From the IMG/VR virus record IMGVR_UViG_3300030109_000555, positions 1-20,026 of that record: DNA of 20,026 nucleotides. One strand, given 5' to 3'. This DNA comes from a virus. The notes beneath the pieces were generated by a model. That model was not told where the DNA came from. It saw only the letters and a list, made by a program, of their open reading frames with translations, and searched no databases. Below, one piece after another: positions 208-19,718 of the stretch (the stretch's first letter is position 1; each line of letters starts with the position of its first letter). The translations under genes and the position numbers were made by a program.

Positions 208-356
208 ATTATTGCGGGATTTGCTATACTGCCCCAAAAATATACCCTTTTGGCTACTGTAAGCCATGTTGGGTCAAGGCAGGTCGGCCCGAACCTATGA
301 AAGCATTGATAAGAGACTCGGACCTGAAGGAAAGTAGGGGTGTAATTAATGGCTGA
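204..356 (+). CDS. Small Cys-pair (putative zinc-binding) protein, about 50 residues
   Basis: A short open frame starts at TTG 204 (or TTG 201) and ends with TGA 354-356. It overlaps the end of the upstream gene by 4 bases and the portal start by 8 bases. The product begins LNYCGICYTAPKIYPFGYCK and continues with PC, giving two Cys-x2-Cys pairs 12 residues apart, the spacing of a small zinc ribbon or treble clef. The rest is polar and charged and ends RGVING. A possible ribosome binding site AAGGTGG lies a few bases upstream at 192-198. It fills what would otherwise be a 141-base gap. The non-ATG start and short length keep this from being certain; the paired cysteines and the tight stop/start overlaps on both sides argue that it is real. 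It could regulate or bind nucleic acid, but nothing shows which. Confidence 0.55.
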   Translation: MNYCGICYTAPKIYPFGYCKPCWVKAGRPEPMKALIRDSDLKESRGVING

Positions 357-1986
357 TGGAAAGCGAAGATTTTCTTTTACTAAACTATTTCGGCGTTCAA
401 CGCCAAAACCTGCCGATAGGCAGATATTCAACATGGGTATTCAGGAAAGACAGAATAACTACATGATGACGGCTCCTATCATTTATTCTATGGTTCAGCA
501 ATCAGTTATTGTAAGGACTTGTATTACTCAACTAAAACAAGAAGTGTATAGAAGAGGATATGTTTGGGAAAAGGCATATGATTCTATATGTTTAGATTGT
601 AAGAAAAAGCACACTCGACCTGTTCAAGAATGTGCTAGATGTGGTTCGACTAATCTAAGGACTCCCGATGTTAAACAATTAGAATACGCTGAAAAGTTCT
701 TAGAAGGATATGTTAATTCATCTGAGCAACTATTTATTGATGTGTTAAAAGAATTGGAAGACGATTTGAATACTATGGATGATGCGTATATTGTCTTAGT
801 GAAAGAGTATTTCTTAGACGGTAATGGAAGAATTAAGATGCACCGCATTAAAGAAGTGTATCGTGGCGACCCTGTTACTATGTTTATTTATGCTGATGAA
901 GATGGCGTAAAAGGGACAAAAGGATTTACTTGTATTAATCACCGTTCTATTCTGCACACGGAACCACATCATTCCTGTGAAGAATGTGGCAGTAATACCT
1001 TCCCTGTTCATTATGTTAATAGAGCAAATGGAGAAGACCAATATTTCTTAGAAGGAGAAGTGCTACACTTTAGTAAATACAGTCCTAGTAGGTTGTATGG
1101 TTTCTCTCCTGTAATTACATTATACAATCATATTATGACTCTAATTGCTATGGAGAATTATGTTAATTCAGCATATACTAAGAGCAGAATGCCTAGAGGA
1201 TTATTGGCAGTACAGACTCGTAACATGGATTCAATGAGAGCCTTTTGGCGTGGTGTAAAAGAGAAGATGGAATCGGACCCACACTTTATTCCTGTTATGG
1301 GAATAGAAGCAGAAAATGGTAAGGGTGCTGTTGAATGGATTAAGTTTATGGATAGTCTAAAAGAGATGGACTACATACAAGTTAAAGATGACTTACGAGA
1401 TAGGATTTCAGCATTCTATGGTGTGAGTAAAGTATTCATGGCAGATAACACCACAAGTGGTGGATTAAATAATGAAGGTATGCAAATCCTAGTTACTAAT
1501 CGTGCAGTACAAATGGCACAGAATGTGTATAATAATTATGTATTCCCTTACTTAGTTAAGCAATTCGGTATTACTGATTGGGTATTAAAACTTCCACCAT
1601 CAGAAGAAGAAGATGAAATCGCTGAACTTCGTAAAAGAGAATTAGAAGTTAGTATTGCGGCGGCTATTAAGAATCTAGGATTTGAAGTTGACATGGATGA
1701 AGATGGTCAATTTACTTTTGAAAAACCTGAACCTGAACAGCAACAAGTTGAAGAAGGACAAGAAGGACAAGAAGCAGACCCATTAGCGGGTTCTAATTTA
1801 GACCAAAGAGATTTAGATGAGAATATGCGTCAAATGGCAGAAGGCGGAAGTAAGCCACAGGAAAATCCAGCGACAACTAGAAATAAGCCTAGTGTTGAGA
1901 CAGGTCCAGATAAGCGTCTAACCGGATTACCCGAAGATGCCGGAAATCAGAATGTTGATTCAAGAACAGAAAGAAGAGTTGGTTGA
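349..1986 (+). CDS. Portal protein (HK97-type) with two zinc-ribbon-like insertions
   Basis: 545 residues; the start ATG 349 is preceded by GGGGTG at 337-342. The portal forms the ring at one capsid vertex through which DNA is packaged and ejected. The core stretch from about residue 235 to 400 has the family's usual pattern: LHFSKYSPSRLYGFSPVITL, a following helix with AMENYVNSAYTKSRMPRGLL, then a segment resembling the clip/stem and DDLRDRISAFYGVSKVFM, and a C-terminal helix around residues 375-405. Two insertions are unusual. The first has C81-x2-C84 and C95-x2-C98; the second has C195-x2-H198 and C210-x2-C213 with more histidines between (H203, H207, H208). Both look like metal-binding ribbons. 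The tail after residue 415 is acidic and Gln/Pro-rich and probably disordered. It is followed at once by the next gene. Family assignment rests on motif pattern and on neighbouring protease and capsid genes. Confidence 0.85.
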   Translation: MADGKRRFSFTKLFRRSTPKPADRQIFNMGIQERQNNYMMTAPIIYSMVQQSVIVRTCITQLKQEVYRRGYVWEKAYDSICLDCKKKHTRPVQECARCGSTNLRTPDVKQLEYAEKFLEGYVNSSEQLFIDVLKELEDDLNTMDDAYIVLVKEYFLDGNGRIKMHRIKEVYRGDPVTMFIYADEDGVKGTKGFTCINHRSILHTEPHHSCEECGSNTFPVHYVNRANGEDQYFLEGEVLHFSKYSPSRLYGFSPVITLYNHIMTLIAMENYVNSAYTKSRMPRGLLAVQTRNMDSMRAFWRGVKEKMESDPHFIPVMGIEAENGKGAVEWIKFMDSLKEMDYIQVKDDLRDRISAFYGVSKVFMADNTTSGGLNNEGMQILVTNRAVQMAQNVYNNYVFPYLVKQFGITDWVLKLPPSEEEDEIAELRKRELEVSIAAAIKNLGFEVDMDEDGQFTFEKPEPEQQQVEEGQEGQEADPLAGSNLDQRDLDENMRQMAEGGSKPQENPATTRNKPSVETGPDKRLTGLPEDAGNQNVDSRTERRVG

Positions 1987-5600: not shown

Positions 5601-6285
5601 AAATGAAGCATTTAATTTATTCTTAAAGGAACCCTCTGACTTACAAAAAATACCCGACCTTGAAAAATTTATTGAAAGTTTCCAACTAACTGCTAGAAAA
5701 ACAGTTGATGAAATGACTGAATTAGAAGAAAAATTATTCCAACAGTGGGAAGATGTAAATGATTCTATTACTAAAGAGATGCCTGAATTAAAGAAAGTGG
5801 CTGTTTCTTTAGCAGAAAGTATGCAAATGTCAAGTGCAGAAGTAAGCCGACTAGAAGTGAAATTGAAAGCAAAATTTGAATACTTAGATGATATACTGGG
5901 CAAGGCTGAAAGATTAGGAGAAGACTATACTGAAAGTGGTATCTTCGTAAGCGAATATGCAGAAATAATGAAAGAAATACACAGTGAAAAACTAATTGAA
6001 CTAGAAAAACAATTAGAATCAAAAGATTTTTCTGCATACCAAACATCTGAACCTGAACAGATAGAGCAAATGATAAAAAACAAAATAAACCAATTAAAGG
6101 AATCTATTAACGAAAGACCTTTTGATATTCATATTAAAAGAATAGAGGAAAGCATTAAAAAATTAGAAGGAAAACTTCAGAAAGAAATTGATGAAATTAA
6201 AGACTTTGCTAATGAGATTGAAACAGGTCTGGCAAAATTAACTTCAAAAGGAATCAAAAGACCAAAGAAAGGTGAAGAAGAATGA
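2653..6285 (+). CDS. Giant Lys/Glu-rich coiled-coil protein (1210 residues), probable virion or assembly protein
   Basis: Starts at ATG 2653 after TGTGATA at 2643-2649, which resembles the archaeal ribosome binding site. The opening MSSWKSIIAGRESDVYYLLK is followed by very long stretches of Lys, Glu, Asp, Leu and Ile, with heptad-like spacing over much of residues 20-420 and again from about 960 to 1200. There is no signal peptide or membrane segment. A basic, likely disordered stretch (RRERKERKRPDKLESELTEK) lies near the middle. The coding strand here is strongly purine-rich, which produces several false open frames on the other strand. Length and coiled coil recall a tape-measure or internal head/ejection protein, but its place between portal and ligase, far from the connector, does not favour a tape measure. 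It ends overlapping the next start by four bases (ATGA). Function unknown. Confidence 0.8.
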   Translation: MSSWKSIIAGRESDVYYLLKELVETLDNKLLKKDKGLESAIKKLEADREELKKILEEQFDKMEENIKEGKKDSNDYYNQLFPAIDRKGGDPESLVDFETSIRETLKDFQIRENKTRTIKIPDNEIEMAVYQIKTDVKDILDNQIERHLKPMTSEQTAQKEKDIQDKILEFEKRIKRYNEEKKEIPKIEKKIEQLEAVSKKESVTLYELSKILDIPVAKKIIPLSVRRERDVKLTKTKNKIDSLKLSLKELNKKLFQVQVFLSPKTIGGKTEVDLSPRGDMGPAQLSAARRKEEQDKQDKYKSQIKKEQAQLNKLEKEYDKEYKDLNQAKLDAKNYNTLDTIGRNGRPSIKKEIKSSKGQIQKIKSDLEIEQDKLEGFKNRIEESEVKLTDAQKNTFEGFFENLDRAYTRGNFSKEELRKKIIASDLKVIKKIREEALKAFDNTSETIRQRIEQRFVQDEEDARRKKEDKGKSLREQIDLKPKDKTSVLFSEIFTEMQSKDSLNNLKEILNEKGFKKYLQILDEKIVMEDSLKEFKSMSEKEKNDYILDNIPKFQTYYTRILKILDDVLSEAQKGSDKKKIKKVETLLRELQAKFVTSLPKEERKKRKEGIKFQVGGPKSKTAGGIKLDDKGMPSPPLDMQLKEEEKRIYQYFFTVAAPKSAKSLLTTKVKGETKTFWKNLNSAVEIFTKNLNENSSTEELEQELVKFINKRNLHTVDILNLIGTTRTNKKREDLLAMLERRKGEPVESKPRRERKERKRPDKLESELTEKERKKLEERGKRSLPPSKEAMLAKAYLILKSAEENKERRMKEWSGSLKEMKAKAAKIKGATDSDEFDISNRKLHQFFTDKPSDSDKSKLFSFIDVNRKGEVLLRGYGYKPKDSGYLDILNAATSILKNLNTVKNIGGKEMSMLDAINTTVRKVYKYEAGRIRTEKKEKVEEAFYAEDKGLIASAIRKITLEKSSAFIIPKVLKRRMLQEGKNLRNEAFNLFLKEPSDLQKIPDLEKFIESFQLTARKTVDEMTELEEKLFQQWEDVNDSITKEMPELKKVAVSLAESMQMSSAEVSRLEVKLKAKFEYLDDILGKAERLGEDYTESGIFVSEYAEIMKEIHSEKLIELEKQLESKDFSAYQTSEPEQIEQMIKNKINQLKESINERPFDIHIKRIEESIKKLEGKLQKEIDEIKDFANEIETGLAKLTSKGIKRPKKGEEE

Positions 6286-6647: not shown

Positions 6648-6876
6648 AAGTGAAGATGTATTGGCTATTCTAAAAGCCTTAACCGATAAAATAGAACAGT
6701 TAGAAAAGACAGTTTATCATCAGGATAACCTCTTGATGAAGTCTGGCTTTGTAGTAGCCACAAGTCCAAGTCCAAAATTGAACAATTCAGTAGCCGCAAC
6801 TTCGGGTATTGGAGATGTTTCTAATATGGAATGGTCTGATATTCATAAGATGGTCGAAAAGATAGGTGGTCAATAA
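6640..6876 (+). CDS. Small coiled-coil protein ending in the WSDIHKMV block shared with the scaffold
   Basis: I choose ATG 6640 because GGTGAA at 6630-6635 sits at normal distance before it; a GTG at 6631 is in frame but would use up that site. The 78-residue product has an N-terminal leucine-rich coiled coil (ILKALTDKIEQLEKTVYHQD), a flexible Ser/Pro/Asn/Ala middle, and a C-terminal segment IGDVSNMEWSDIHKMVEKIG. That segment is almost identical to the C-terminus of the protease-scaffold (IDEISSMDWSDIHKMV). The shape (coiled coil, linker, C-terminal binding helix) is that of a miniature scaffolding protein, so a role in procapsid assembly or cargo loading is inferred, not shown. It overlaps the preceding gene by 8 bases and the next start by one base (TAATG). 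Confidence 0.8.
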   Translation: MSESEDVLAILKALTDKIEQLEKTVYHQDNLLMKSGFVVATSPSPKLNNSVAATSGIGDVSNMEWSDIHKMVEKIGGQ

Positions 6877-7112
6877 TGCCAGAAAGAGTAACTAAAGAAG
6901 AGAGAGTAGTTAGCCTTGCTATTGAAAAGGCTAGAAAAGTAAAAGAATTAATGCAACAAGAAAGCACTCATGAAAGATTGCCTCTTGATGATGAATTAGA
7001 AATAGTAAAGGTTAAGCGACCAAAGGCTCAATCTTCTAAACATGGAATAACTCAAGATAAGGAACACGCAAATGCCGATAATTCTAAACCTTTTAGCGGT
7101 AAATTGAAGTGA
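6876..7112 (+). CDS. Small charged hypothetical protein
   Basis: 78 residues; ATG 6876 overlaps the previous stop by one base and follows AGGTGGT at 6864-6870. The N-terminal half is a charged helix (RVVSLAIEKARKVKELMQQE); the second half is polar with Lys, Ser, His and Asn and probably disordered. No domain is recognised. The TGA stop at 7110-7112 forms part of the sequence GTGATAACATG that starts the ligase gene, so the two are likely coupled. Confidence 0.65.
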   Translation: MPERVTKEERVVSLAIEKARKVKELMQQESTHERLPLDDELEIVKVKRPKAQSSKHGITQDKEHANADNSKPFSGKLK

Positions 7113-7116
7113 TAAC

Positions 7117-9633
7117 ATGCCAGCAACCGGCCTTCTATTTGAGAAGGGTAAAGCCTCTAATGAAATCCTTCAATGTTTTGAAAAGGTTAGAGTCGCTTAT
7201 CTTTCTGCAAGGACCGACCCTAAAGAGTACGGTTCAAAATGGAGAAGTGCCATAGAATATCTTAGAGAAGAGTACGATGATTCAGGCGAGTTTGGTGAAG
7301 AATTAAAAAAATACATTGATGCTACGGAATTAGAAAATGAAGATGCTTTAGATGTAAGTACCACTATTGCTGAAAAAATATTTGAATCAGTAAAAATGAT
7401 GAGGTATTCATCTGAACAGGTATCTGACCCGTTCTCTAAAAATTTTAAGGATAATGTTCTTGAAGCATTATTAGAATCACCCGAAACAATGGTTAAATTC
7501 GTGCATTATGCTATGCGTTCAGACAATAAAGCACTAAAACCATCCATTTACAGCGTTAAAGACATGGAACCTGACACCATTACGGAGGGTCTTATGGGAC
7601 TTGACCTAGAAGTTGACGACATAGCCCTCTATATTATAGAGCATTATGGGGATGGAAAAGACTCAAAGAAGGTTGAAAAGAAAGTAAAGGCCGCACTCGG
7701 TATGTTGGAATTGTTATTCTTCTCAAAGCACGATAAAGAAGAGTGGAAAGAATTAGAAGATGTGGATATGGAAAGTGAAACTCCTAAGAAGATGATTTCC
7801 AAATCAGATACAGAAAAGGCCAAGTCTGATTTCATTACTCCTAACAAACCTATGTATAGAATATTTGATATAGATGACATAAAAGAATTAAAAGGCTTTA
7901 GTGGCGAGTGGGTAGTACAAGAGAAGTATGACGGTATGAGAATACAGATACATAAAATAGATAGTAAAATTAAAATTTATTCTTATAACGAAAAAGACAT
8001 CACTGATAAGTGTAAAGAAATACTAAAGGAAATGAAGAAGAAACATTTCGGAGATTGTATTCTTGATGGAGAATTAATACTGTTCAAAGGAGAAGAAGCA
8101 CTTCATAGAGCAGACACAATAGCACATGTCTTTAAAGACAAATACCCCGATGCAGAATTAAAAGCGCATATGTTCGACATTATGCGACACGATGATAAGA
8201 GTATTGCTGATGAAACTTTACAGGATAGAATGAATATAATGTTCAATAACTATTCCGTTCATTCTAGTGAATACTTAAATTTCCCTTCTAAGAAAGATAC
8301 TCGTATGGCGGATAGTATTAAGGATATTGAAGAATATTCTAAGGATATTATGGAAATGCCTACCTCTGAAGGAGTAGTAATTAAAGACGCTACATCAACT
8401 TATTACATTGGTACTAAAAAGAATCCTAAATGGATTAAGTGGAAGAAGTTTGTTGATTTAGATTTAATTGTATTGAATAAGAAAACTACTAAGAGTAATC
8501 TTTATTCTTATACTTTAGGTGCTGGACCTGCTGAAGAGGGAGAAGAAATAGAAGGCAATAAATACATGAATGTAGGTAAAGCCCTCAATACTAAAATTGA
8601 TGTGGAAATTGGAGATATTGTCCGTGTTAAGGTTGATGAAGTAAAGAAAAAGAATGATGTTTATTCTGTTTATTCTGCCAAAGTAATAGAAGTACCTGAA
8701 GTGGAAATGCCAGATAAAATAATTACTTTAGATTTATTATCACAAGATACTAAAAAATCTCTCAATTATGATGTAAAGGCATTAGAGAAAGGAATAGTTG
8801 TTACTGACCATATTCACGGAGAAGCCTCTATTATTATTAAAGGAGATATGGATGGCTTTACTGTTTATGGATTTAATGAACATAACTTAATGGCTAAGAA
8901 TGCTATGCTAGATTTAGATGTTTGGAAAACTCAAGCAGAAGAAATAATGAAAACTAAACAGTCTAGATTAACAGTGGCCGCATTTAATCATATGAGAGAG
9001 AAAGGTCCGAAGACTCCCAAAGAATTACATAATTATTTAGTTAAAAATCACAAGGGTATTTATGAAGATATTCTAGATAGCAAACTAACTAAGATAAAAG
9101 ATTGGATGAAACAGCGTGATGGAATATCTTTTGATGAAAACACTAAGAAGTTATTTTCTGATGCTGATAAGATTATGCAAGAAACTGATGACATTAAGAA
9201 ATATAAAACTCCTGAAGATTTAAGAGAAGGTAATTTTAAATTATATTTAAGAGATGATGAGAACCTTAATTTAGTGATTAAGTTAAAGAATGAATCCCTT
9301 AATTGGTTAATTGATTTAGAAAAGGATGATGATATATTTGCACTATTTGGCAAGGCTAACAAATACCCTGCCCAAGTAGCACAGAATCTATCTAAGAAAC
9401 AGGTAATAGATTCGGGTAAGATAAAGTTAGGTGTTCAGAGAACAGGCTACCATGAGTATTTCCTAGAGGGGAATAAGTTTGAGACTAAGATGCACTTTCG
9501 AGTAATTGAAGTGGATGGTAAAGAAATGTGGTTAGCATGGACAGGATATAAACAGGAACCTGCTGATAAAGAAGGTGACTCAGGACTATGGGATATTTAT
9601 GAGGATAGGTATTCTAAATTGGAATTACCATAA
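7117..9633 (+). CDS. ATP-dependent DNA ligase with long C-terminal extension
   Basis: 838 residues. The enzyme seals nicks in duplex DNA by ATP-dependent adenylation of a lysine. Motif I is EKYDGMR with catalytic K270; motif III is LDGELIL (316-322); IIIa is MFDIM (352-356); IV is SEGVVIKD (417-424); V is KWIKWKKF (438-445). Residues 1 to about 210 match in size and helical character the N-terminal DNA-binding domain of archaeal/eukaryal LigI-type ligases, and about 445-530 is the OB fold. Residues from about 540 on are not part of a usual ligase: a helical region and a last stretch with LGVQRTGYHEYFLEG (771-785) and MWLAWTGY (804-811), which loosely recalls LigD phosphoesterase-like domains without their usual catalytic His pattern. 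GTGATAACATG at 7109-7119 supports the start. Placement between portal and protease is unusual and suggests a role in genome maturation. Confidence 0.92.
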   Translation: MPATGLLFEKGKASNEILQCFEKVRVAYLSARTDPKEYGSKWRSAIEYLREEYDDSGEFGEELKKYIDATELENEDALDVSTTIAEKIFESVKMMRYSSEQVSDPFSKNFKDNVLEALLESPETMVKFVHYAMRSDNKALKPSIYSVKDMEPDTITEGLMGLDLEVDDIALYIIEHYGDGKDSKKVEKKVKAALGMLELLFFSKHDKEEWKELEDVDMESETPKKMISKSDTEKAKSDFITPNKPMYRIFDIDDIKELKGFSGEWVVQEKYDGMRIQIHKIDSKIKIYSYNEKDITDKCKEILKEMKKKHFGDCILDGELILFKGEEALHRADTIAHVFKDKYPDAELKAHMFDIMRHDDKSIADETLQDRMNIMFNNYSVHSSEYLNFPSKKDTRMADSIKDIEEYSKDIMEMPTSEGVVIKDATSTYYIGTKKNPKWIKWKKFVDLDLIVLNKKTTKSNLYSYTLGAGPAEEGEEIEGNKYMNVGKALNTKIDVEIGDIVRVKVDEVKKKNDVYSVYSAKVIEVPEVEMPDKIITLDLLSQDTKKSLNYDVKALEKGIVVTDHIHGEASIIIKGDMDGFTVYGFNEHNLMAKNAMLDLDVWKTQAEEIMKTKQSRLTVAAFNHMREKGPKTPKELHNYLVKNHKGIYEDILDSKLTKIKDWMKQRDGISFDENTKKLFSDADKIMQETDDIKKYKTPEDLREGNFKLYLRDDENLNLVIKLKNESLNWLIDLEKDDDIFALFGKANKYPAQVAQNLSKKQVIDSGKIKLGVQRTGYHEYFLEGNKFETKMHFRVIEVDGKEMWLAWTGYKQEPADKEGDSGLWDIYEDRYSKLELP

Positions 9634-9653: not shown

Positions 9654-9682
9654 GTGTAAGAAGATAGCAGGGGTTGAAGACT

Positions 9683-10897
9683 ATGAGCATTAGTGTCATG
9701 GCTACAAGGAATGATGATTTCAGAATCCTAAAAAGCGACGAATTAATGATTGGTGGTTATGCAAGTATCGAAGTTGTGGATAAACAAAACGATTTAATTA
9801 CACTAGAAGCATTAAATACCGCAGTTAAAAAGTTTATGGATGATAAGAAATTCAGAAATGTAATGACAAATCATTCTAATGTTCAAGTTGGTGAAGTAAT
9901 AGACTCTTATCGAGATAAAAGTGGAAAACTATGGAAATCAGAAGTTGATGATGTAGGATTTTTTGTAGTAATTAAATTAAGAGATGATATTGAAAAAGCC
10001 AAAGAAGTTGGAAGAGGTATTCGTAAAGGAACATTAAGGTCTTTTAGTATCGGTGGACAAGCATTACAAAAGGTAAAGAAAAGTCACGGTGAATTAGGCG
10101 AATACAACGAAATTAGTAAATTAGAACTCCATGAGGTAACAATCTGTGAAAAAGGAATTAACCCTGAAGCAAAGTTTGATATTTTAAAAAGAGATACAGG
10201 AGATGAAAAAATGAGTGATAAACTAGAAAAAGCACTAGATGAATTAGATGTTCTTCTTAAAGAAGTCGAACAGATGAAGGGCGACGAATTGGAATCAGCA
10301 GAATACGCTGATGAAGAGACTGAAACAATGGAAAATGCTGATGAAATGATGATGGAAAGGGCAGATTCAGAAGAAGACAAAGAAATGGAATCCTCTTCAT
10401 ATGATGAAAAGACTAACGAAGAAAAAGCATACCTTCGTACTCTTGATGGCGCAGGTAATCAAATTGGAGAACCAGCAGACCGTATTGTAATTAACAATGG
10501 TAAGCCTACTGCAAATGATATGCCGGTAGTTAAGGCATTTAGCAACGGAGAGTTTGATACTCTAAACCTTTCTAATTCTAACATTGAAAAGGCATACGAA
10601 GCATTCCGTCAAGAGCAACTTGAAGCACTTGCATACGAAAACCTACGAAAGTCTTTTGAAACTCGTTTTGAGTCTGAAAAGGCAAACCGTGAGAATGTTC
10701 TAGCAAAGTCTCAATATGATGCACAGGCTGAAATTGCTTCCATAAAGCAAGAATTTAGCGACCTACGCAAGTCTCTTACTGCTGAAAAAGAAACTATTCT
10801 AAAGGCACAAGAAGAGTCAGTAATTAAGATGCCAAGCATTGATGAGATTTCATCAATGGATTGGTCAGATATTCACAAGATGGTGAACAACAGATAA
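9683..10897 (+). CDS. Prohead protease fused to scaffold domain
   Basis: 404 residues from ATG 9683, preceded by GGGGTTGA at 9670-9677; a TTG at 9674 is in frame but lies inside that site. Residues 10-170 resemble the HK97/XkdF-type serine protease that cleaves capsid and scaffold during maturation: GGYASIEVVDKQNDLIT, NHS with H64, then LRSFSIGG with S120 or S122 as nucleophile, and LELHEVTICEKGINPEAKF at the end of the domain. Residues 177-250 are highly acidic, then about 290-380 forms a charged coiled coil, as in scaffolding proteins, and the end is ISSMDWSDIHKMVNNR. A fused protease-scaffold explains why the capsid protein next door lacks a long delta domain. An internal start may make scaffold alone (see 10211). 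GGTGAT directly after the stop begins the capsid gene. Confidence 0.85.
   Translation: MSISVMATRNDDFRILKSDELMIGGYASIEVVDKQNDLITLEALNTAVKKFMDDKKFRNVMTNHSNVQVGEVIDSYRDKSGKLWKSEVDDVGFFVVIKLRDDIEKAKEVGRGIRKGTLRSFSIGGQALQKVKKSHGELGEYNEISKLELHEVTICEKGINPEAKFDILKRDTGDEKMSDKLEKALDELDVLLKEVEQMKGDELESAEYADEETETMENADEMMMERADSEEDKEMESSSYDEKTNEEKAYLRTLDGAGNQIGEPADRIVINNGKPTANDMPVVKAFSNGEFDTLNLSNSNIEKAYEAFRQEQLEALAYENLRKSFETRFESEKANRENVLAKSQYDAQAEIASIKQEFSDLRKSLTAEKETILKAQEESVIKMPSIDEISSMDWSDIHKMVNNR
10198..10206 (+). promoter_or_regulatory. Internal ribosome binding site for a scaffold-only product
   Basis: AGGAGATGA matches the ideal archaeal/bacterial site AGGAGGTGA at 8 of 9 bases and stands four bases before an in-frame ATG at 10211. 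It lies exactly between the protease domain and the scaffold domain of the fused gene. Most true starts in this window have weaker matches. Confidence 0.5.
10211..10897 (+). CDS. Candidate internally started scaffolding protein (same frame as protease)
   Basis: Translation from ATG 10211 would give 228 residues beginning MSDKLEKALDELDVLLKEVE, that is Met177 to the end of the fused protein. The product would hold the acidic segment, the coiled coil and the C-terminal WSDIHKMV block, without the protease. The arrangement is known in phage lambda, where scaffold Nu3 starts inside protease gene C. Support here is the strong internal ribosome binding site at 10198-10206 and its place at the domain boundary; whether it is used cannot be seen from sequence. 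Confidence 0.45.
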   Translation: MSDKLEKALDELDVLLKEVEQMKGDELESAEYADEETETMENADEMMMERADSEEDKEMESSSYDEKTNEEKAYLRTLDGAGNQIGEPADRIVINNGKPTANDMPVVKAFSNGEFDTLNLSNSNIEKAYEAFRQEQLEALAYENLRKSFETRFESEKANRENVLAKSQYDAQAEIASIKQEFSDLRKSLTAEKETILKAQEESVIKMPSIDEISSMDWSDIHKMVNNR

Positions 10898-10908: not shown

Positions 10909-12243
10909 ATGACAGGATATATTAACACAATCGCAGATTTAGAAGCACAAGCATACGGAATGAACCTACCTGCCGGTAATGCACTATTAAAGCAAGCAGG
11001 TATGGTTGGTGGAATACACACAGGACATGACGGTTCTCCGTCATTTAGCGGTTCAGCCGTTTCTGATGTATCAGCACTATACAATGTAGTTTACGGACAA
11101 AAGGTTTGGTCTATGCTAAACCGTGAAGTTAACGCATTGTCTATGATTTCAAAGCGACCTTACACTTCAAGTGGATGGAGAGTATTAAAGAGCAGACCTG
11201 CTGGTGGAAGCGGTAATCTCTTTACTGTTGATAAAGCAGATACAGATTTAACATTGGGAGAATTGGGTTCAGATACTCCAAGAGCAGATGCTATTGGTGG
11301 TGTTCCAGAAAACGCAGGGCTTTCTTCTGCACAAGATGGATTGGGACCAATTGCACCAACTTATGCTCAATTGAACATGAGTCCAAAAGTAATTGCTCAT
11401 CAATTTGATTTCAGCGAATTGGCTATGGAAATGGCACAGATTGACGATGGAATTGGAGATATTAGAGCGCAAATGCGTGAAGATATGGGTAAGCACCATG
11501 CAGAAGTACAAAACAAGATGCTTGTTATGCCACTACAATTTTATGGTGAATCAGCACTATTACCTAACATTGGTAACAACTATACTTCATTGTTGAAGGT
11601 TATTACTTCCCATGCGGAATTAGACCTATTGGATGCACAATCTTCTCTAATGACAGATGCTTTCAATGCTACAAATGTCAGCCACATTTACGGTACAAAC
11701 CGTGATATTGAATCATTCCTTGATTCAGAAGTTGATGCAGGTACTACTTATGCGGCAACAGGAGTTAGACCACTAACTCTTACTTTGCTAAATAACATGG
11801 TTCGTAACTTGAGACTTGCTGGTGGTTCACCAAAGGTTATTCTAACCGGATATGATACCATTCAAGCAATTGCAGACTTATTGCAAAGCCAAGAAAGATT
11901 CATGGACCGAAAGGAAATTGTACCAACAGTTAACGGTGTTCGTGGAACAAAGGGTCAAGAAGTCGGATTTAGAGTAGCAACATACTACGACATTCCGCTA
12001 ATTCCTGTAAAGGACATGACACAAACCGGACTTGCTTCAACTAAACTATCTGACCTATTATTCCTTGATACAGACCATCTATGGTTGTCTGTTATGAAGC
12101 CAACTCAATACTTTGAGGATGGAATCGCTAATGGAAACCCATTCGGTGTAGGAACACTAGGAAACCGTGCATTGTACCGTACTATCGGTGAAGTCGGTTG
12201 TTCGTTCTTTAAGGGTCAAGGAAAAATTACTAACATACAGTGA
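10909..12243 (+). CDS. Major capsid protein (HK97 fold)
   Basis: 444 residues. Evidence is position directly after the protease-scaffold, size, and sequence character: a Gly/Ala/Ser-rich N-terminal arm (residues 1-55), SALYNVVYGQKVWSMLNREV (55-74) leading into the fold, an extended region with many Gly and Asp (about 98-150) that fits the E-loop, then AHQFDFSELAMEMAQIDDGI and a long helix (about 163-205) that fits the spine helix of the P domain, and an A-domain-like second half with SPKVILTGYDTIQAIADLLQ. The protein is less charged than its neighbours and its codons favour GCA, ACA and AAC more than the Lys/Glu-rich genes. The N-terminal arm may be cut by the protease, but no cleavage site can be fixed. 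It forms the icosahedral shell. Confidence 0.88.
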   Translation: MTGYINTIADLEAQAYGMNLPAGNALLKQAGMVGGIHTGHDGSPSFSGSAVSDVSALYNVVYGQKVWSMLNREVNALSMISKRPYTSSGWRVLKSRPAGGSGNLFTVDKADTDLTLGELGSDTPRADAIGGVPENAGLSSAQDGLGPIAPTYAQLNMSPKVIAHQFDFSELAMEMAQIDDGIGDIRAQMREDMGKHHAEVQNKMLVMPLQFYGESALLPNIGNNYTSLLKVITSHAELDLLDAQSSLMTDAFNATNVSHIYGTNRDIESFLDSEVDAGTTYAATGVRPLTLTLLNNMVRNLRLAGGSPKVILTGYDTIQAIADLLQSQERFMDRKEIVPTVNGVRGTKGQEVGFRVATYYDIPLIPVKDMTQTGLASTKLSDLLFLDTDHLWLSVMKPTQYFEDGIANGNPFGVGTLGNRALYRTIGEVGCSFFKGQGKITNIQ

Positions 12244-13910: not shown

Positions 13911-14300
13911 ATGGCCGCATTGAACCAAGATACTAGACTAGTTATGACTATTTTATTTGTTGGCACTGTTAGTGGTGCTAATGTTTATTTTTATGCTAAT
14001 TATGGTGTTAATTTCCCATACACTACTTTGGCACACTCCGCACTATTTGGACTAATTACAGTGGGTGGAATTATGTGTCTAAAGGCACTATTTGACTTAT
14101 CATTAAATGATAAGATTGAATTGAGACTGTTGGATAGAAGAATTAATGCTTATTGGGAACGCAGGGCGAGAGATGAGCAACAAAGACAAAAACTAACAGA
14201 AACCATGAAGCAATATAATACTACAAGTATTGCGCCAAGCACACCTATGTATGAGTCAGAAAACACCATATCGAATGATTTCTTGGCTAAATTACAATGA
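13911..14300 (+). CDS. Membrane protein with two transmembrane helices
   Basis: 129 residues, ATG 13911 after TGAGGTGTTATT. Hydrophobic segments at about residues 9-29 (RLVMTILFVGTVSGANVYFY) and 38-62 (ending GGIMCLKALFDL) form two likely membrane helices. The remaining half is charged and helical (LLDRRINAYWERRARDEQQR) and probably on the inner side of the membrane, where Arg-rich ends are favoured. It is the first of three consecutive genes with hydrophobic segments, the third being a GTPase. A holin is possible by size, but the long charged C-terminal part and the GTPase neighbour make a membrane-anchor or scaffold role equally likely. No family recognised. Confidence 0.72.
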   Translation: MAALNQDTRLVMTILFVGTVSGANVYFYANYGVNFPYTTLAHSALFGLITVGGIMCLKALFDLSLNDKIELRLLDRRINAYWERRARDEQQRQKLTETMKQYNTTSIAPSTPMYESENTISNDFLAKLQ

Positions 14301-14309
14301 GGTGTTTAA

Positions 14310-14528
14310 GTGGTCTTTGGAGACATAATGGGTTTTAGTGAAACCGACTATGTGTATAATCAAAGTCGGGCGCATTCCGCCGACATGTTTTTTGTTAAAA
14401 TGAGATATTTCTTTTGGGGGCTTACAGCCTCCATATCTTGTTTTTTTATTGGAAATATAATGGGTGTTTTTGACATCAATGTTATGGGATGGATTTTAGA
14501 TAATTTATGGCACTCTTGGGAGATATAA
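14310..14528 (+). CDS. Small single-span membrane protein
   Basis: 72 residues with GTG start at 14310, preceded by TGAGGTGTTTAA; ATG 14328 is in frame but lacks such a site. One strongly hydrophobic segment at about residues 33-53 (YFFWGLTASISCFFIGNIMG) is followed by a short aromatic-rich amphipathic end (WILDNLWHSWEI). The N-terminal 30 residues are polar. It ends one base before the GTPase start, so the two are likely made together. Function unknown; it may act with the neighbouring membrane protein and GTPase. Confidence 0.65.
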   Translation: MVFGDIMGFSETDYVYNQSRAHSADMFFVKMRYFFWGLTASISCFFIGNIMGVFDINVMGWILDNLWHSWEI

Positions 14529-14529
14529 T

Positions 14530-15192
14530 ATGTCAATGATAGCGGGGTTTGCCGTAGTAGTTACGGAAGCCTGTATTGCATTTTGGAAAAGAGTACACGC
14601 AATTAATTTTGGAGTATATGGTGCGACAATGGTAGGTAAAACAACATTAAGTCATCAAATGAGAACAAGGGGAGAAGTACAAACTATTCAAGAAAGAACA
14701 GTAGGAATACATAGACCTACTAGAAAAACAATTAAACTAGAAGGAGATGTGCATACCATTAGAAGTTCTGATATAGGGGGAGAAGCAATATATTGGAAAG
14801 AATGGGCTAAAGATATGAGAATTAGAAAACCTAAATATATTATTTTCATGATAGACCATAGACATTTAGATAGTCCAGCCAATTTAGACCACCAAGTAGC
14901 ATGGAAGTTTTTAGTTGATGTTGTATTAAGTGATAGATGGCCGAATGGTAAAAGAAAAAAAGATAAAGATTATCCTATGGCAATTGGTATTTGGGCTAAT
15001 AAGTATGATGTTTGGGGAGAAATATATAAGTCTGACCGTGAAATAGATAAGCATGAAATATTTGAGCCATTTACTTACGGTATGAGAAAATTAAATGATA
15101 AAGGAATACCTACTTACAAATACATAGTTTCAGCAAAGTCAGACCCCGAAATGGTGTATAGAGGAATCACTACAATGATAAAAGATTACTGA
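14530..15192 (+). CDS. Ras/Arf-like small GTPase with hydrophobic N-terminus
   Basis: 220 residues, ATG 14530 after GGGAGATATAAT. All main G-protein motifs are visible: P-loop GATMVGKT (31-38), a switch-I-like TVGI with T57, G3 DIGGE (81-85), G4 NKYD (157-160) and G5 SAK (201-203). The order and spacing match small GTPases of the Ras/Arf group; DIGG is closest to the Arf-type DVGG. The position of the catalytic Gln (after GG) holds Glu85, so hydrolysis may be slow or depend on a partner. Residues 1-18 (MSMIAGFAVVVTEACIAF) are hydrophobic and could anchor the protein in a membrane. An insertion with Lys/Asp (KRKKDKDYP, 141-149) precedes G4. Two membrane-protein genes lie directly upstream. GTP binding is well supported; what it switches is unknown. 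Confidence 0.85.
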   Translation: MSMIAGFAVVVTEACIAFWKRVHAINFGVYGATMVGKTTLSHQMRTRGEVQTIQERTVGIHRPTRKTIKLEGDVHTIRSSDIGGEAIYWKEWAKDMRIRKPKYIIFMIDHRHLDSPANLDHQVAWKFLVDVVLSDRWPNGKRKKDKDYPMAIGIWANKYDVWGEIYKSDREIDKHEIFEPFTYGMRKLNDKGIPTYKYIVSAKSDPEMVYRGITTMIKDY

Positions 15193-15201
15193 GGAATTAA
15201 A

Positions 15202-15873
15202 ATGTATCAACAACCGAACTTAATAGGGACTAATGTTTCAATAGCACCCAATTCAACTAACCCAGCACAAATGCAACCGTTTTCTTTGAACAGGTTTTTA
15301 CCTAAACTAGCGCAGTTTAGGGCGGCTGGTAATATAACAGAATATACTTATGATAGTATTAAACCTAAAAAGAAACTAAAAGAAATAAGAAAGATTTTAT
15401 TTCCTGAAAAGAAATCTTTCCTTAAAATAAAATATGGAAACAAATTTAACTTCAAGGACATATGTGTTGTTTGTGGAACACATCATGTTTGGGAATCAGG
15501 TGATTTTTTAAGACCACCTATACCTTTAGATAAAGTAACTAAAGGTAGGCCACTAAGGGGAACCTATTGTCAAAAACATGCAGGTATTCATAAACAGATG
15601 GAAATGCTTCAACAGCAGATTTTAGCAGAAGAGAACGGTTTAGACTTCAAAGCATTCATTCCAAAGGCAAGAATGCCTCAACTGATGCGAAAGGGGCCAC
15701 TAACTACTTTAAGTAAAGATGATGTGGTCAGTTTAACCGCAACCGGATGGGTTATAAAGCCGCCCTCCTTGACAGATAGTGAGACTACTATGGCGGAAAT
15801 AGTGCGTCTTATTGCTGAAATAGGATTATCAACAGAAAGACTAAATCATTTAATTAGCGTTAAGGAGGAATAA
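15202..15873 (+). CDS. Putative zinc-finger protein (223 residues)
   Basis: ATG 15202 follows TGAGGAATTAAA. The middle holds C88-x2-C91 (ICVVCGTHH), with two histidines directly after, and C123-x2-H126 (YCQKHAG), a plausible zinc site of CCCH type. The region before it is basic (IKPKKKLKEIRKILFPEKKS), and the N-terminal 30 residues are Asn/Pro/Gln-rich and probably flexible. The C-terminal third has SLTATGWVIKPPSLTDSETT followed by a helix. Nothing identifies a family. Its place behind the GTPase and before another structural-looking gene suggests it belongs to the same module. The final codons AAG GAG GAA double as the ribosome binding site of the next gene. Confidence 0.7.
   Translation: MYQQPNLIGTNVSIAPNSTNPAQMQPFSLNRFLPKLAQFRAAGNITEYTYDSIKPKKKLKEIRKILFPEKKSFLKIKYGNKFNFKDICVVCGTHHVWESGDFLRPPIPLDKVTKGRPLRGTYCQKHAGIHKQMEMLQQQILAEENGLDFKAFIPKARMPQLMRKGPLTTLSKDDVVSLTATGWVIKPPSLTDSETTMAEIVRLIAEIGLSTERLNHLISVKEE
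15863..15868 (+). promoter_or_regulatory. Ribosome binding site AGGAGG within the end of the preceding gene
   Basis: AGGAGG lies seven bases before ATG 15876 and is the strongest purine-type Shine-Dalgarno match in the window, differing from the GGTG type used by most neighbours. It is coded inside the last codons of the upstream gene, so the two are translated in close succession. Confidence 0.6.
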
Positions 15874-15875
15874 AT

Positions 15876-16532
15876 ATGGGATTTTTAGGAACAAGTAATG
15901 GAACAGTGATGAATGCTGTTAATGCACAAAGCGACCAGCAGTTTAAGAATGTAAGTAACTTACTTTCTTTACAAGATAATCATGTTGAAGAGTTTTTCCA
16001 ATACCACGGACAACAGTTTTTTTCAGCGATGGAAAAACTATTGGAAGATGTAGTGGAAAGGTCTGTTAGTCGAATGTTAACTAAATTAGTATTCGTACAA
16101 GACTCCACTAGCGGGACTATGAAATTGCAATCAGGTTCTTTAGGAGAGTTTGAAAAGATTACACAAGAAAACATAGACTTGGATTTAACAAGACTATTAG
16201 ATTCAGCGATTAATTCAGAAGTAATTAATCAAAGAAAAATGGCTAAACAACAATACTTAGAATCTCAAGGATTTTCTTCTCCACAAAGTCAACAAGTTGG
16301 AGTAGGTTTAGCAGTTGCAGGTGTAACAGGCAATATGCAACAATATAATCAAATGCAGGGAGCGGTAAATAATGGTACTGGTTATCCTGTTCCACCAAAC
16401 GGCACAGACGGATATGGTAGGCCATATTGGTTAGATGCTCAAGGCAATATGTCACTTGAACCACCATCTTCAGGATTAGGTCTAGGAGGCGCAATACAAA
16501 AAGGTGCGGCTTGGGCAAAATGGTTAATGTGA
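15876..16532 (+). CDS. Gln/Asn/Gly-rich hypothetical protein
   Basis: 218 residues with a strong AGGAGG site. Residues 15-75 are helical and amphipathic (VEEFFQYHGQQFFSAMEKLL, EDVVERSVSRMLTKLVF); residues 140-200 are Gln-, Asn-, Gly- and Pro-rich (GNMQQYNQMQGAVNNGTGYP) and probably disordered; the end is Gly-rich and weakly hydrophobic with two Trp (KGAAWAKWLM). No signal peptide or enzyme motif is visible. The composition of the second half is like virion or fibre-associated proteins, but this is only a resemblance. Function unknown. Confidence 0.7.
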   Translation: MGFLGTSNGTVMNAVNAQSDQQFKNVSNLLSLQDNHVEEFFQYHGQQFFSAMEKLLEDVVERSVSRMLTKLVFVQDSTSGTMKLQSGSLGEFEKITQENIDLDLTRLLDSAINSEVINQRKMAKQQYLESQGFSSPQSQQVGVGLAVAGVTGNMQQYNQMQGAVNNGTGYPVPPNGTDGYGRPYWLDAQGNMSLEPPSSGLGLGGAIQKGAAWAKWLM

Positions 16533-16543
16533 GTTGATTAATA

Positions 16544-18598
16544 TTGAAACTCTATTACTCTAGTGAGCAGAAAATAGTCGAATGGAATGAAGACTATGCT
16601 AAAAAGGAGTTTTTAGATTATATTTTTCAAGACTATTCCACATCTAAAAGAACAGATGCAGAGGATATTGATGAATACATTGAAGAAATGATTGAAAGTC
16701 AAGAAGGAAAACTACCTGTAAAAGAAAAATTTGATGAAGAAGAGTTTAGAAGCATATGTAAAAAGGCAATCACAACTCTAAGAAACAAAAAATTTAGTCA
16801 GTTAGGATTTAATCCTAGATTTAAAGATGAAACTTTTAAGCAAGTGGAACCTCACATTCCTGATAAACCTATATTAGAAGCCACCGCCAAAAAAGCGGTA
16901 CAAGTGGCTACAAAAGACGATGTTGAGTTTGATAAGAAAAAACATATTGCTAGAGCATGGGGTAATAATTATAGTAAATATTTTGACACTGTTTGGGAGG
17001 CAAAAGAAAAACCAAAGATTACTGAAACATCTAAAACTGTTACTAAACAATTTGTGATTTCAGACCATGACCCTACATTAAGTAAAAAGGAAAAGGGACA
17101 AACGGTACAAATAGAACAGAGAGAACCACTGACTAAAGCAAAGAAACTTTATGATGCAGGGGTGACTTATTTTTACAAAGAAACAGCAGAGCCAAAAAGC
17201 GGAAGTTCTAGAGGATTTAAGTCTTCTTTGGGAGATATGGTATATTCAAGAACAAGGGCTTCTAAAAGAAGTTTTGGTTTAAAAACAACAGATAAGAAAG
17301 AATTAAATATGGATGAATTATCTTCTGACTTTGTGGATAAGGTAGTTAGTGAAAGAATATTAGAATATGAAAATATAAAAGATTCTGAAGGAAAGGGTGA
17401 AGGAATAAAGGTAGCAAAAACATTTGAGTATGATTCAGGAGATTCTGAATACTATTTACAAAGAGCCATGTTTTTCGTTGATGAAATGAAAGACTTCCTT
17501 GCTCTAAGTCCCGAAGAACAATTGAAACAGATGATATTTAATTCAAAAAAAGAGTTTACTGCTGAAGAAAAAGAAGAAATGACAGAAGAAGTTAGAAGAG
17601 AAGCAAAGGGTATGCTTTCTAAATTACCTTCTGACTTTAAAGAAAAAGGTACGGCCATTAAATCTGCTCTTAAAAAATATGACAGCATGATGGAAATATT
17701 AGAAAAACTAACTGAATTGGGTAATAAAGGAATGAAACTATCTAAAACAGATATAGAAAAGATAGATACCGATATTACTTCTCTTCTTGATACCATTAAA
17801 GAAGAAAAGAAATTGTATAATATTAAATCTTCAGGATATAGATTTAAGTCCGACACAGGAAAAAATCAACAATTCAATAGTCTTAGATTTGGTTTTAACC
17901 AAGGCTCAATCGCTGTATTAAAAAAGAGGGGTGGAATATATTATAATCTATGGCAAGAAGGACAAACTAGGAGAGAAAGAACCGAGACAGGGAAAGAATC
18001 AAAAAAGAAAAACCCTACAAAAAAATTGACTCCTACTCAACTAAAAGAATATAAACAAAATCAATTTGAAAGATATAACTATTTAATATCACATGTACTT
18101 AGTTGGATTGCTAAAGAATTAGATGTATTGGTGTTGGCTCAAATGAAAATGCTAAGAGAGGCTGGTAAGGCTTTAGACATAGAACAAGACAAAAAAAGTG
18201 GAACCTATTATAAACAAGACTTAAGGGCTAAGGAAGCGTTTAATGACCCTAAAAAGTGGCTTAAAAAGGAAGCAAAGGCGGCTCTAGAAGATATGTTAAC
18301 TCTCTATGAGATTACATTAATAGTCGTTGAAACAACTCCACCTGACGGAAAGAAAAAATATAGTATTAAAAAGTGGAATATAACACCTAGACAACAATAT
18401 CTTAGAGGAAGAATACCATTAGGAACGGGAACCTCTGTTGCTACCGGAGATACAATGGCAGATACAGGTAAATATCGTAAGACTAGTGCTGTTAGTCAAG
18501 AAGCCTTGCCTTCTGAATTAAAGAAAAAGGTCGGTTATTTTTCTTCACTAATAAGAAGAAGATTCAAAGAAATAGCAACTAGCGTGAGGGAGATTTAA
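16544..18598 (+). CDS. Large charged hypothetical protein (684 residues), TTG start
   Basis: The reading frame starts with TTG 16544, about five bases after GTTGAT, a one-base variant of the GGTGAT site; the next in-frame ATG is over 100 bases downstream and would remove a conserved-looking start (KLYYSSEQKIVEWNEDYAKK). The protein is Lys/Glu-rich with predicted helical and coiled regions at about residues 330-430 (MTEEVRREAKGMLSKLPSDF), and a more mixed C-terminal third including SHVLSWIAKELDVLVLAQMK and a closing basic LIRRRFKEIATSVREI. No membrane segment, protease or nuclease motif is recognised. It directly precedes the connector gene and its composition recalls the 1210-residue protein at 2653, without visible sequence identity. 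It may be a virion protein. Confidence 0.78.
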   Translation: MKLYYSSEQKIVEWNEDYAKKEFLDYIFQDYSTSKRTDAEDIDEYIEEMIESQEGKLPVKEKFDEEEFRSICKKAITTLRNKKFSQLGFNPRFKDETFKQVEPHIPDKPILEATAKKAVQVATKDDVEFDKKKHIARAWGNNYSKYFDTVWEAKEKPKITETSKTVTKQFVISDHDPTLSKKEKGQTVQIEQREPLTKAKKLYDAGVTYFYKETAEPKSGSSRGFKSSLGDMVYSRTRASKRSFGLKTTDKKELNMDELSSDFVDKVVSERILEYENIKDSEGKGEGIKVAKTFEYDSGDSEYYLQRAMFFVDEMKDFLALSPEEQLKQMIFNSKKEFTAEEKEEMTEEVRREAKGMLSKLPSDFKEKGTAIKSALKKYDSMMEILEKLTELGNKGMKLSKTDIEKIDTDITSLLDTIKEEKKLYNIKSSGYRFKSDTGKNQQFNSLRFGFNQGSIAVLKKRGGIYYNLWQEGQTRRERTETGKESKKKNPTKKLTPTQLKEYKQNQFERYNYLISHVLSWIAKELDVLVLAQMKMLREAGKALDIEQDKKSGTYYKQDLRAKEAFNDPKKWLKKEAKAALEDMLTLYEITLIVVETTPPDGKKKYSIKKWNITPRQQYLRGRIPLGTGTSVATGDTMADTGKYRKTSAVSQEALPSELKKKVGYFSSLIRRRFKEIATSVREI

Positions 18599-18599
18599 A

Positions 18600-19718
18600 A
18601 TGCCGGTAGCATCCTCCCCAAGTGACTATACTGCGATTAATGTTGATTATTCAACAGGAAGTGGTTTTTATACAGATAAAGGAGCAGTTTCAGATTTGCT
18701 CCAAGTACCGGCATTTTCATCTTCCACTTATCCAAGTCAAGCACAAATAGGTTCGATTATTAAGAACATAGAAGGTGTTGTTGATGACAAGGTTAAGCGT
18801 TCATACCGACCAATAATTTATGAAAATGAGTTTCATAACTTTGAGTTTATTCGCCATCCTATGCAATCTTATTATGGTGGTTATGTAGGTTTTATTCAAT
18901 TAGATACTTTAAAGGTTAAAAAGATTATTTCATTAAAGGTATGGCAAGGTAATCAATATCAGGAATTAGCATCTGCTTCAGCCTCTATTACATTAGATAC
19001 AACAGGCTATAATAATCTAAGAAGCATAACTTTGCAATTACCTAATAGCGGTGAATCATGGGTGCTTTATCATCATGCAGAAGGAAGTCTAGCCGCCCAC
19101 AATACATTCCATAATGGCTTCGGTTCTAAAACAACTGCGAAAGATATATGCCATTTAATAAATGAAGAATATCCCGCCAATACTGCACAATTCACAGGTG
19201 CTACAAGAGATAAGATACTAACTTCTTCTCCTAATAGTCTAAACATAAGTGATTTCTTTTATGCAAGTACAGACCCCGATGATAGCAATAAAATAAACAT
19301 TTCTAGCCTTTTATCAGGAGAGGATGGCTCCTATTGTACTATTACAACGGCAGATAAGGCGGGTCAAACATCAAGCACTACTGTATCTGCGTTCACCGAT
19401 ATGCAAGATATGAAGAGACTTGGTTCCTTTTGGTCTATTGGTGATGAAGGCCGTATTTTCTTCCTTAGAGATTATCCATACCATACTCAAAACTCTATCA
19501 TTGTGACTTATATTGCAGGTAGTAGTCGAGTACCGTCTGCAATTCATAAAGCCACAACAATGTTAGTGGCGGCAGAAATATTGAGACATGATGACCAAAC
19601 TATTCTTATTGCAGAAACAGGTGGTAATATTACTACCAAAGAAAAGTATGATATATTGGTAAAAGAAGCCAACGATATATTGAAGGGCAAGGGCGACTTA
19701 GTATTTTTACTTGAATAG
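18600..19718 (+). CDS. Probable head-tail connector (Ad1/gp6-like)
   Basis: 372 residues; ATG 18600 follows GAGGGAGATTTAAA and starts one base after the previous stop. The N-terminus VSDLLQVPAFSSSTYPSQAQ followed by IGSIIKNIEGVVDDKVKRSY has the pattern of phage adaptor proteins (an LL-x-x-P-x-F-x-x-S-T-x-P-x start, then a helix binding the portal). The C-terminus SIIVTYIAGSSRVPSAIHKA, followed by TTMLVAAEILRHDD and EKYDILVKEANDIL, matches the end of gp6/gp15-type connectors (VTY-x-x-G-x-x-x-VP-x-x-I-x-x-A, then helices). At about 150-275 there is an extra beta-rich stretch that makes it longer than the usual adaptor of 100-200 residues. It would attach below the portal to close the head. Family call is by pattern only. 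Confidence 0.65.
   Translation: MPVASSPSDYTAINVDYSTGSGFYTDKGAVSDLLQVPAFSSSTYPSQAQIGSIIKNIEGVVDDKVKRSYRPIIYENEFHNFEFIRHPMQSYYGGYVGFIQLDTLKVKKIISLKVWQGNQYQELASASASITLDTTGYNNLRSITLQLPNSGESWVLYHHAEGSLAAHNTFHNGFGSKTTAKDICHLINEEYPANTAQFTGATRDKILTSSPNSLNISDFFYASTDPDDSNKINISSLLSGEDGSYCTITTADKAGQTSSTTVSAFTDMQDMKRLGSFWSIGDEGRIFFLRDYPYHTQNSIIVTYIAGSSRVPSAIHKATTMLVAAEILRHDDQTILIAETGGNITTKEKYDILVKEANDILKGKGDLVFLLE

Follow-up and report, generated by a model that had tools for sequence, protein, structure and literature searches.

The window, a stretch of 20,026 nucleotides analysed at its full length (IMG/VR record IMGVR_UViG_3300030109_000555), carries at 14530..15192 a gene that, to judge from its motifs, family profiles and predicted fold, encodes a small GTPase. 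The features of this gene and of the block around it are listed below, with counts given over the loci that have room for the gene in question.

349..1986, plus strand: portal protein (PF04860 3e-11, phrog_18178 3e-68)
9674..10897, plus strand: prohead protease, S78 family
10909..12243, plus strand: major capsid protein (MCP), HK97 fold, SU10/HVTV-1 type (PF17236 7e-7, phrog_24667 2e-24, HVTV-1 MCP 2.7e-30)
13911..14300, plus strand: p13911, small membrane protein with 1-2 hydrophobic segments and a charged C-terminal half (330/331 loci)
14310..14528, plus strand: p14310, membrane protein of 72 aa; single hydrophobic segment, RAHSAD motif invariant (335/341 loci)
14530..15192, plus strand: Arf-like small GTPase gene, 220 aa, ATG to stop (open reading frame, family profiles, predicted fold, conservation)
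14533..14595, plus strand: predicted N-terminal hydrophobic/amphipathic helix, aa 2-22 (model, hydrophobicity and moment in 45 relatives, conservation)
14620..14643, plus strand: G1 / P-loop GATMVGKT, aa 31-38 (GxxxxGKT in 185/185 distinct homologues)
14695..14706, plus strand: G2 / switch I RTVG, aa 56-59 (T57 invariant)
14770..14784, plus strand: G3 / switch II DIGGE, aa 81-85 (residue 85 is Gln in deep clades, compare Arf DxGGQ)
14998..15009, plus strand: G4 NKYD, aa 157-160, guanine specificity (185/185 distinct homologues)
15130..15138, plus strand: G5 SAK, aa 201-203 (183/183 homologues reaching SAK)
15202..15873, plus strand: p15202, conserved, with a CxxC...CxxH zinc-type motif (305/307 loci)
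15876..16532, plus strand: p15876, with a conserved NLL.LQ.NHVE.F..YHGE core and an AWAKWL C-terminal tail (289/289 loci)
18600..19718, plus strand: p18600, head-tail adaptor-like (HVTV-1 gp125 frame 9.4e-18, phrog_17057 4e-13)

A sequence-only reading of this DNA had proposed a Ras/Arf-like GTPase in which GATMVGKT, DIGGE, NKYD and SAK are ordered and spaced as in small GTPases; it described the gene as tightly packed between structural-looking genes and outside any early-gene region. All four motifs are present, and the G2 threonine (T57, in RTVG) was additionally found. The packing is as tight as described, since the upstream open reading frame ends at 14528, which places the p14310 stop codon 1 nt ahead of the GTPase start codon at 14530, and the next frame opens at 15202. 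The gene is located in the late structural block, with the portal, the S78 protease and the HK97-type MCP upstream and the head-tail adaptor-like gene downstream. An ATP-dependent DNA ligase is also encoded on the GTPase strand, together with portal, protease and MCP.

Family and fold of the GTPase

Among all six-frame open reading frames of the window, the GTPase frame was the sole match to a loose pattern of the five motifs, a pattern that never occurred when the six-frame proteome was shuffled (0/2000). Wider sampling brought the homologue set to 222 distinct sequences, and GxxxxGKT, T-x-G, Dx-GG[E/Q], NKxD and SAK follow each other in order in 214 of the 215 that are full-length. Column counts were taken from 185 distinct homologues, in which G31, G36, K37, T38, T57, D81, G83, G84, N157, K158 and D160 are invariant. 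Residue 85, the catalytic position, is Glu in 181 and Gln in 41 of the 222 distinct members, with Gln85 in deep clades and Glu85 in the clade of the window, which itself has Glu. Mapped on the tree, this residue changed about five times, in a pattern consistent with an ancestral Gln under midpoint rooting only. The Ras mutant Q61E provides a precedent that Glu at the catalytic position need not abolish hydrolysis.

Each of 23 close members individually matched the profiles TIGR00231 small_GTP (E up to 1; best 7e-6) and PF01926 (E up to 1; best 6.5e-5). The window protein scored below every curated family cut-off (Roc, for example, 17.7 vs 27) and showed no Arf match among the Pfam matches listed. 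The deep-branching relative L323 surpassed the Pfam Ras cut-off (PF00071, 23.2 vs 21.6 bits) and reached 19.7 bits with Pfam Arf (PF00025), for which the cut-off is 22.3; the best E value with PF00025 among 45 members was 3.8e-5. In HHalign comparisons, a profile of 185 GTPase sequences gave a probability of 91% against HRAS, represented by a sequence identical to PDB H-Ras, and of 76% against a four-sequence Arf alignment. These sequence comparisons do not decide between Arf, SR-beta, Ras and Roc at this finer level.

That the gene instead encodes another P-loop enzyme (a packaging ATPase, kinase or recombinase) merely resembling a GTPase is extremely improbable. Weak, sub-threshold P-loop matches to AAA domains and Sak4-like proteins were obtained, but NKxD and SAK are invariant, and the same HHalign profile that recovered HRAS and Arf gave probabilities of at most 0.5% with five P-loop ATPases and kinases (thymidylate kinase, RadA, TerL, RFC and AAA of HVTV-1) and with the MCP. 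The matches to packaging ATPase, kinase and RecA-like enzymes spanned only 8-19 columns. The score of L323 above the Ras cut-off and the top structure matches, all of them GTPases, also stand against such an enzyme.

The structure of the GTPase, modelled from an alignment of 45 sequences (pLDDT 74.2, pTM 0.75), shows strands and helices in G-domain order, with a six-stranded G-domain fold; confidence is low at switch I (pLDDT <50 at aa 47-56). An earlier AF2 model, built on 23 close rows, was of poor quality (pLDDT 56), and its fold matches were disregarded. The best fold match (VIA) was ARF6, with Z 15.9 and 2.7 A rmsd over 161 residues, and the leading rows belong to the Arf family, followed by Asgard ArfR (Z 15.0 for GerdArfR1, and 14.5), Gtr1 (14.4), Rab (about 14) and G-alpha (13.9). 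Fold rows within 1 Z were treated as ties, and therefore Arf is just moderately preferred over Rab. Foldseek returned small GTPases at E 2.5e-7, with Ras ranked first, and among the matches listed from the predicted viral structures of BFVD there were essentially GTPases of giant viruses of eukaryotic hosts. The Ras/Arf-like assignment of the sequence-only reading is thus supported by the profile searches and by a fold closest to Arf, and the other P-loop enzymes tested are rejected.

The best fold matches are also where the likeness to Arf/Arl proteins (Arf1, Arf6, Arl1, Arl3) and to Asgard ArfR lies, and it extends to DxGG[Q/E] at G3, TxG at G2, a helix before the G domain and a non-glycine residue at the position equivalent to Ras G12. 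Unlike Arf, the viral protein does not have Gly2 for myristoylation, the aligned members starting mostly with MS- and with MAT- in the L242 clade; its catalytic residue is Glu in most members, and it scores below the Pfam Arf cut-off where bit scores were listed, contains extra loops at about aa 137-146 and between G4 and G5, and is encoded in a virus structural operon. Because of the missing Gly2, the mostly Glu catalytic residue and the weak Arf profile scores, we do not class it as an Arf. In contrast to Rab and Ras, it has no C-terminal prenylation Cys, and the viral members shown end in -DY or -EY. The likeness to SR-beta (SRPRB) consists of weak profile matches, obtained for 39 of 45 members (3e-5 at best), and of a hydrophobic N-terminal segment immediately preceding the G domain, but the matches are sub-threshold (best 14.8 bits vs 25 among the matches listed), and the viral gene stands in a late operon without an SRP partner. 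Giant viruses of eukaryotic hosts also encode small GTPases (Rab, Ras, Ran); these resemble eukaryotic family members, whereas the gene studied here occurs in tailed archaeal viruses, in a morphogenesis block, and is conserved group-wide.

No homologue of the GTPase was found in 50,697 phage records (tblastn, two queries), PHROG offered no convincing family, and PADLOC gave no match to a defence gene. Many matches of two degenerate-motif scans were unrelated genes or eukaryote-like Arf genes, the latter kept solely as Arf references. Ordinary eukaryote-like Arf genes are carried by the IMG/VR contigs L165, L180, L183 and L184, which are possibly giant viruses or eukaryotic fragments.

A core gene of the magrovirus structural block

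As the window is a 20 kb fragment, its identity was tested on relatives. All of the 12 long relatives (contigs of 70-99 kb) have PolB, and 9 of them have a Cpn60 chaperonin; their PolB lies on the opposite strand from the GTPase and is mostly split into two separate pieces. Magrovirales have tailed-virus genomes of 90-110 kb with PolB, often a chaperonin, and replication and structure blocks on opposite strands, and they infect marine Poseidoniales archaea (PMC10768690, PMC12999244), which is the basis for the host assignment here. By gene content and layout, the window belongs to a magrovirus, a tailed virus of Poseidoniales.

The sequence-only reading had asked whether the gene occupies the same place in related viruses, and it was present wherever the relatives had enough sequence. 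A scan anchored on the MCP, and so independent of the GTPase, found the GTPase in 54/54 loci with enough downstream sequence. The gene order runs from the MCP through two small membrane proteins to the GTPase, which is followed by the zinc protein, p15876 and the head-tail adaptor. In loci anchored on the GTPase, the MCP lies upstream in 280/280 with room. In this count and in those listed above for p13911, p14310, p15202 and p15876, the scans overlap, so that the loci are not all independent contigs. On these counts, which come from sequence, the GTPase is a core gene of magroviruses and part of their late virion-building block.

For p13911, p14310, p15202 and p15876 no convincing match to known families was found in Pfam or PHROG. 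In p15202 the motif CVVCG...GTYCxKH is conserved, and the gene adjoins the 3' side of the GTPase in most loci. Two large charged open reading frames of the structural block, at 2653-6285 (1210 aa) and 16544-18598 (684 aa), are barely conserved, with matches in just 2-3 loci at 27-29% identity; relatives retain a large open reading frame at the place of 16544-18598. In the relative L242 (about 6670-7350), the short gene upstream of p13911, of the p13602 family with a GGCRSSGA start, seems to be tandemly duplicated.

Among 31 diverse genomes, the mean pairwise identity of the GTPase equals that of the MCP (0.67 in both), the other neighbours lying at 0.46-0.59. The distances between GTPases correlate with those of the MCP and all neighbours (Mantel r 0.82-0.86; MCP/capsid 0.82; 0/999 permutations), so the gene has moved together with the backbone of the virus. 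Each of the long genomes tested (12/12) holds one copy. In seven close GTPase pairs dN/dS was 0.02-0.12, which indicates purifying selection. A non-functional relic or passenger gene, which we also considered, is ruled out by these dN/dS values, the invariant motifs and the presence in 54/54 loci.

The related halovirus HVTV-1, of the Druskaviridae, has a homologous MCP and adaptor in identical order in its structural operon (MCP 2.7e-30, gp125 9.4e-18), but the GTPase cassette is missing: a profile search that covered 100,000 of its 102,319 bases gave no homologue of the GTPase, p13911, p14310, p15202 or p15876. Since the cassette is found in all tested magroviruses and is absent from HVTV-1, it was probably either inserted into or lost from a shared head module.

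The sequence-only reading also held that the gene could have been taken from an archaeal host. A search of 84,980 species genomes with two exact conserved peptide patterns, which is of limited sensitivity, recovered no close cellular homologue, and its sole match was a virus contig, L084. Distant host homologues, and with them an origin from the host, are compatible with this search. L084 (NZMJ01000024.1), which has the MCP, the GTPase and their neighbours, is a magrovirus contig filed in a public genome of the bacterium Maricaulis, into which it was apparently misbinned. The IMG/VR contig IMGVR_UViG_3300021958_000021 (184,733 bases) holds two different magrovirus structural blocks (L070 and L076) about 90 kb apart and probably represents two genomes joined in assembly.

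A putative membrane switch in assembly or exit

The model contains a helix at aa 2-22, in which G6 and F7 are almost invariant and an acidic residue stands at position 13. Over 45 relatives, this helix has a mean moment of 0.35 (range 0.27-0.64) and a mean hydrophobicity of 0.37. It is transmembrane-like in the clade of the window (maximum Kyte-Doolittle 1.8), other clades being less hydrophobic and more amphipathic (moment up to 0.64), a variation that leaves more than one mode of membrane contact conceivable. Together with the membrane proteins encoded upstream, the hydrophobic N-terminal helix makes a membrane-associated switch the best-supported reading.

Arf proteins are a functional precedent for a GTP switch at membranes. 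A second one comes from archaea, where the small GTPase ArvA (HVO_3014/OapA) is needed for vesicle formation in Haloferax volcanii; Arf is its closest Pfam family by profile search, and it has a predicted N-terminal amphipathic helix and conserved partner genes (PMC10927574). Compared by description, ArvA and the viral protein are both Arf-like small GTPases of the archaeal domain with an N-terminal helix and partner genes, but ArvA is cellular, with arvB and arvC downstream, whereas the viral gene is followed by p15202 and p15876. ArvA is the closest functional precedent for the viral GTPase.

Our preferred reading, which we hold tentatively, is that the protein is a virus-specific, Arf-like core GTPase, most likely a membrane-associated GTP switch acting in virion assembly or exit. 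The five invariant G motifs, the Arf-type fold, the DxGGQ of the deep clades, the N-terminal helix and the upstream membrane proteins all point to a switch, as do the presence in all capsid-anchored loci (54/54), the low dN/dS, the MCP-level conservation, the phylogeny matching that of the capsid and the ArvA and Arf precedents. Membrane binding, the identity of the partners and the role in assembly or egress are what we infer. The N-terminal hydrophobic helix would attach the GTPase to the host cytoplasmic membrane, either alone or packed against p13911 and p14310. Binding and hydrolysis of GTP would then recruit and release partners, for which p15202 and p15876 are candidates, and through this cycling the building of the capsid, the packaging of DNA or exit could be tied to the membrane when and where needed. 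HVTV-1 assembles without the cassette, and therefore such a step cannot be universal for this virus type. We know of no magrovirus in culture.

Other roles can be imagined for a GTPase in this position. It may be a structural component of the virion, its fold serving as a nucleotide-loaded scaffold or as a neck or internal protein, with the membrane proteins belonging to an injection apparatus. A location flanked by decoration-type genes and the head-tail adaptor in every locus examined, and a conservation equal to that of the MCP, would suit this role, which we nevertheless regard as unlikely: all catalytic and guanine-binding motifs, NKxD and SAK included, are invariant, and the catalytic position admits only Gln or Glu, which exceeds the needs of a dead scaffold. 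It is similarly improbable that the protein is a mimic for host takeover, competing with or replacing a host small GTPase (of the ArvA type, or one of polarity or motility) and altering the host surface. Archaeal small GTPases do have such cellular roles (PMC10927574), and the gene is kept as a single copy in every long genome; on the other hand, it lies in the late structural block and not among early genes, and the peptide-pattern search, within its limited sensitivity, recovered no close cellular homologue.

A switch for the timing of lysis, through which the GTPase would control holin-like p13911 and p14310 and link the opening of the cell to finished capsids, appears more improbable still. 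Two small hydrophobic proteins immediately upstream in nearly all loci, and the late-gene location, are what such a switch would have; but neither protein matches a holin family, the long conserved charged half of p13911 is unlike a simple holin, and lysis genes do not usually keep a fixed place within a head module. Returning to the membrane switch in assembly or exit, a bolder form of it would have tailed archaeal viruses own an ancient Arf-like system, composed of the GTPase and two dedicated membrane proteins and obligatory in assembly or exit, which is conceivable but rather doubtful.

Significance for tailed archaeal viruses

Few viruses of surface-ocean archaea are as widespread as the magroviruses. 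A conserved viral small GTPase together with two membrane proteins offers a concrete, testable candidate for the step at which tailed archaeal viruses are assembled at the archaeal membrane or exit across it. The magrovirus papers covered mention no small GTPase, nor did we find one reported for other tailed viruses, the annotation tables of the founding magrovirus papers lying outside our coverage; as far as checked, tailed viruses would here have their first known small GTPase among core genes. It would also add an independent Arf-like branch that is not cellular and bears on how membrane-trafficking switches arose. If the bolder form of the membrane-switch reading is true, a whole order of tailed viruses would depend on a small-GTPase membrane switch as a core function of morphogenesis.
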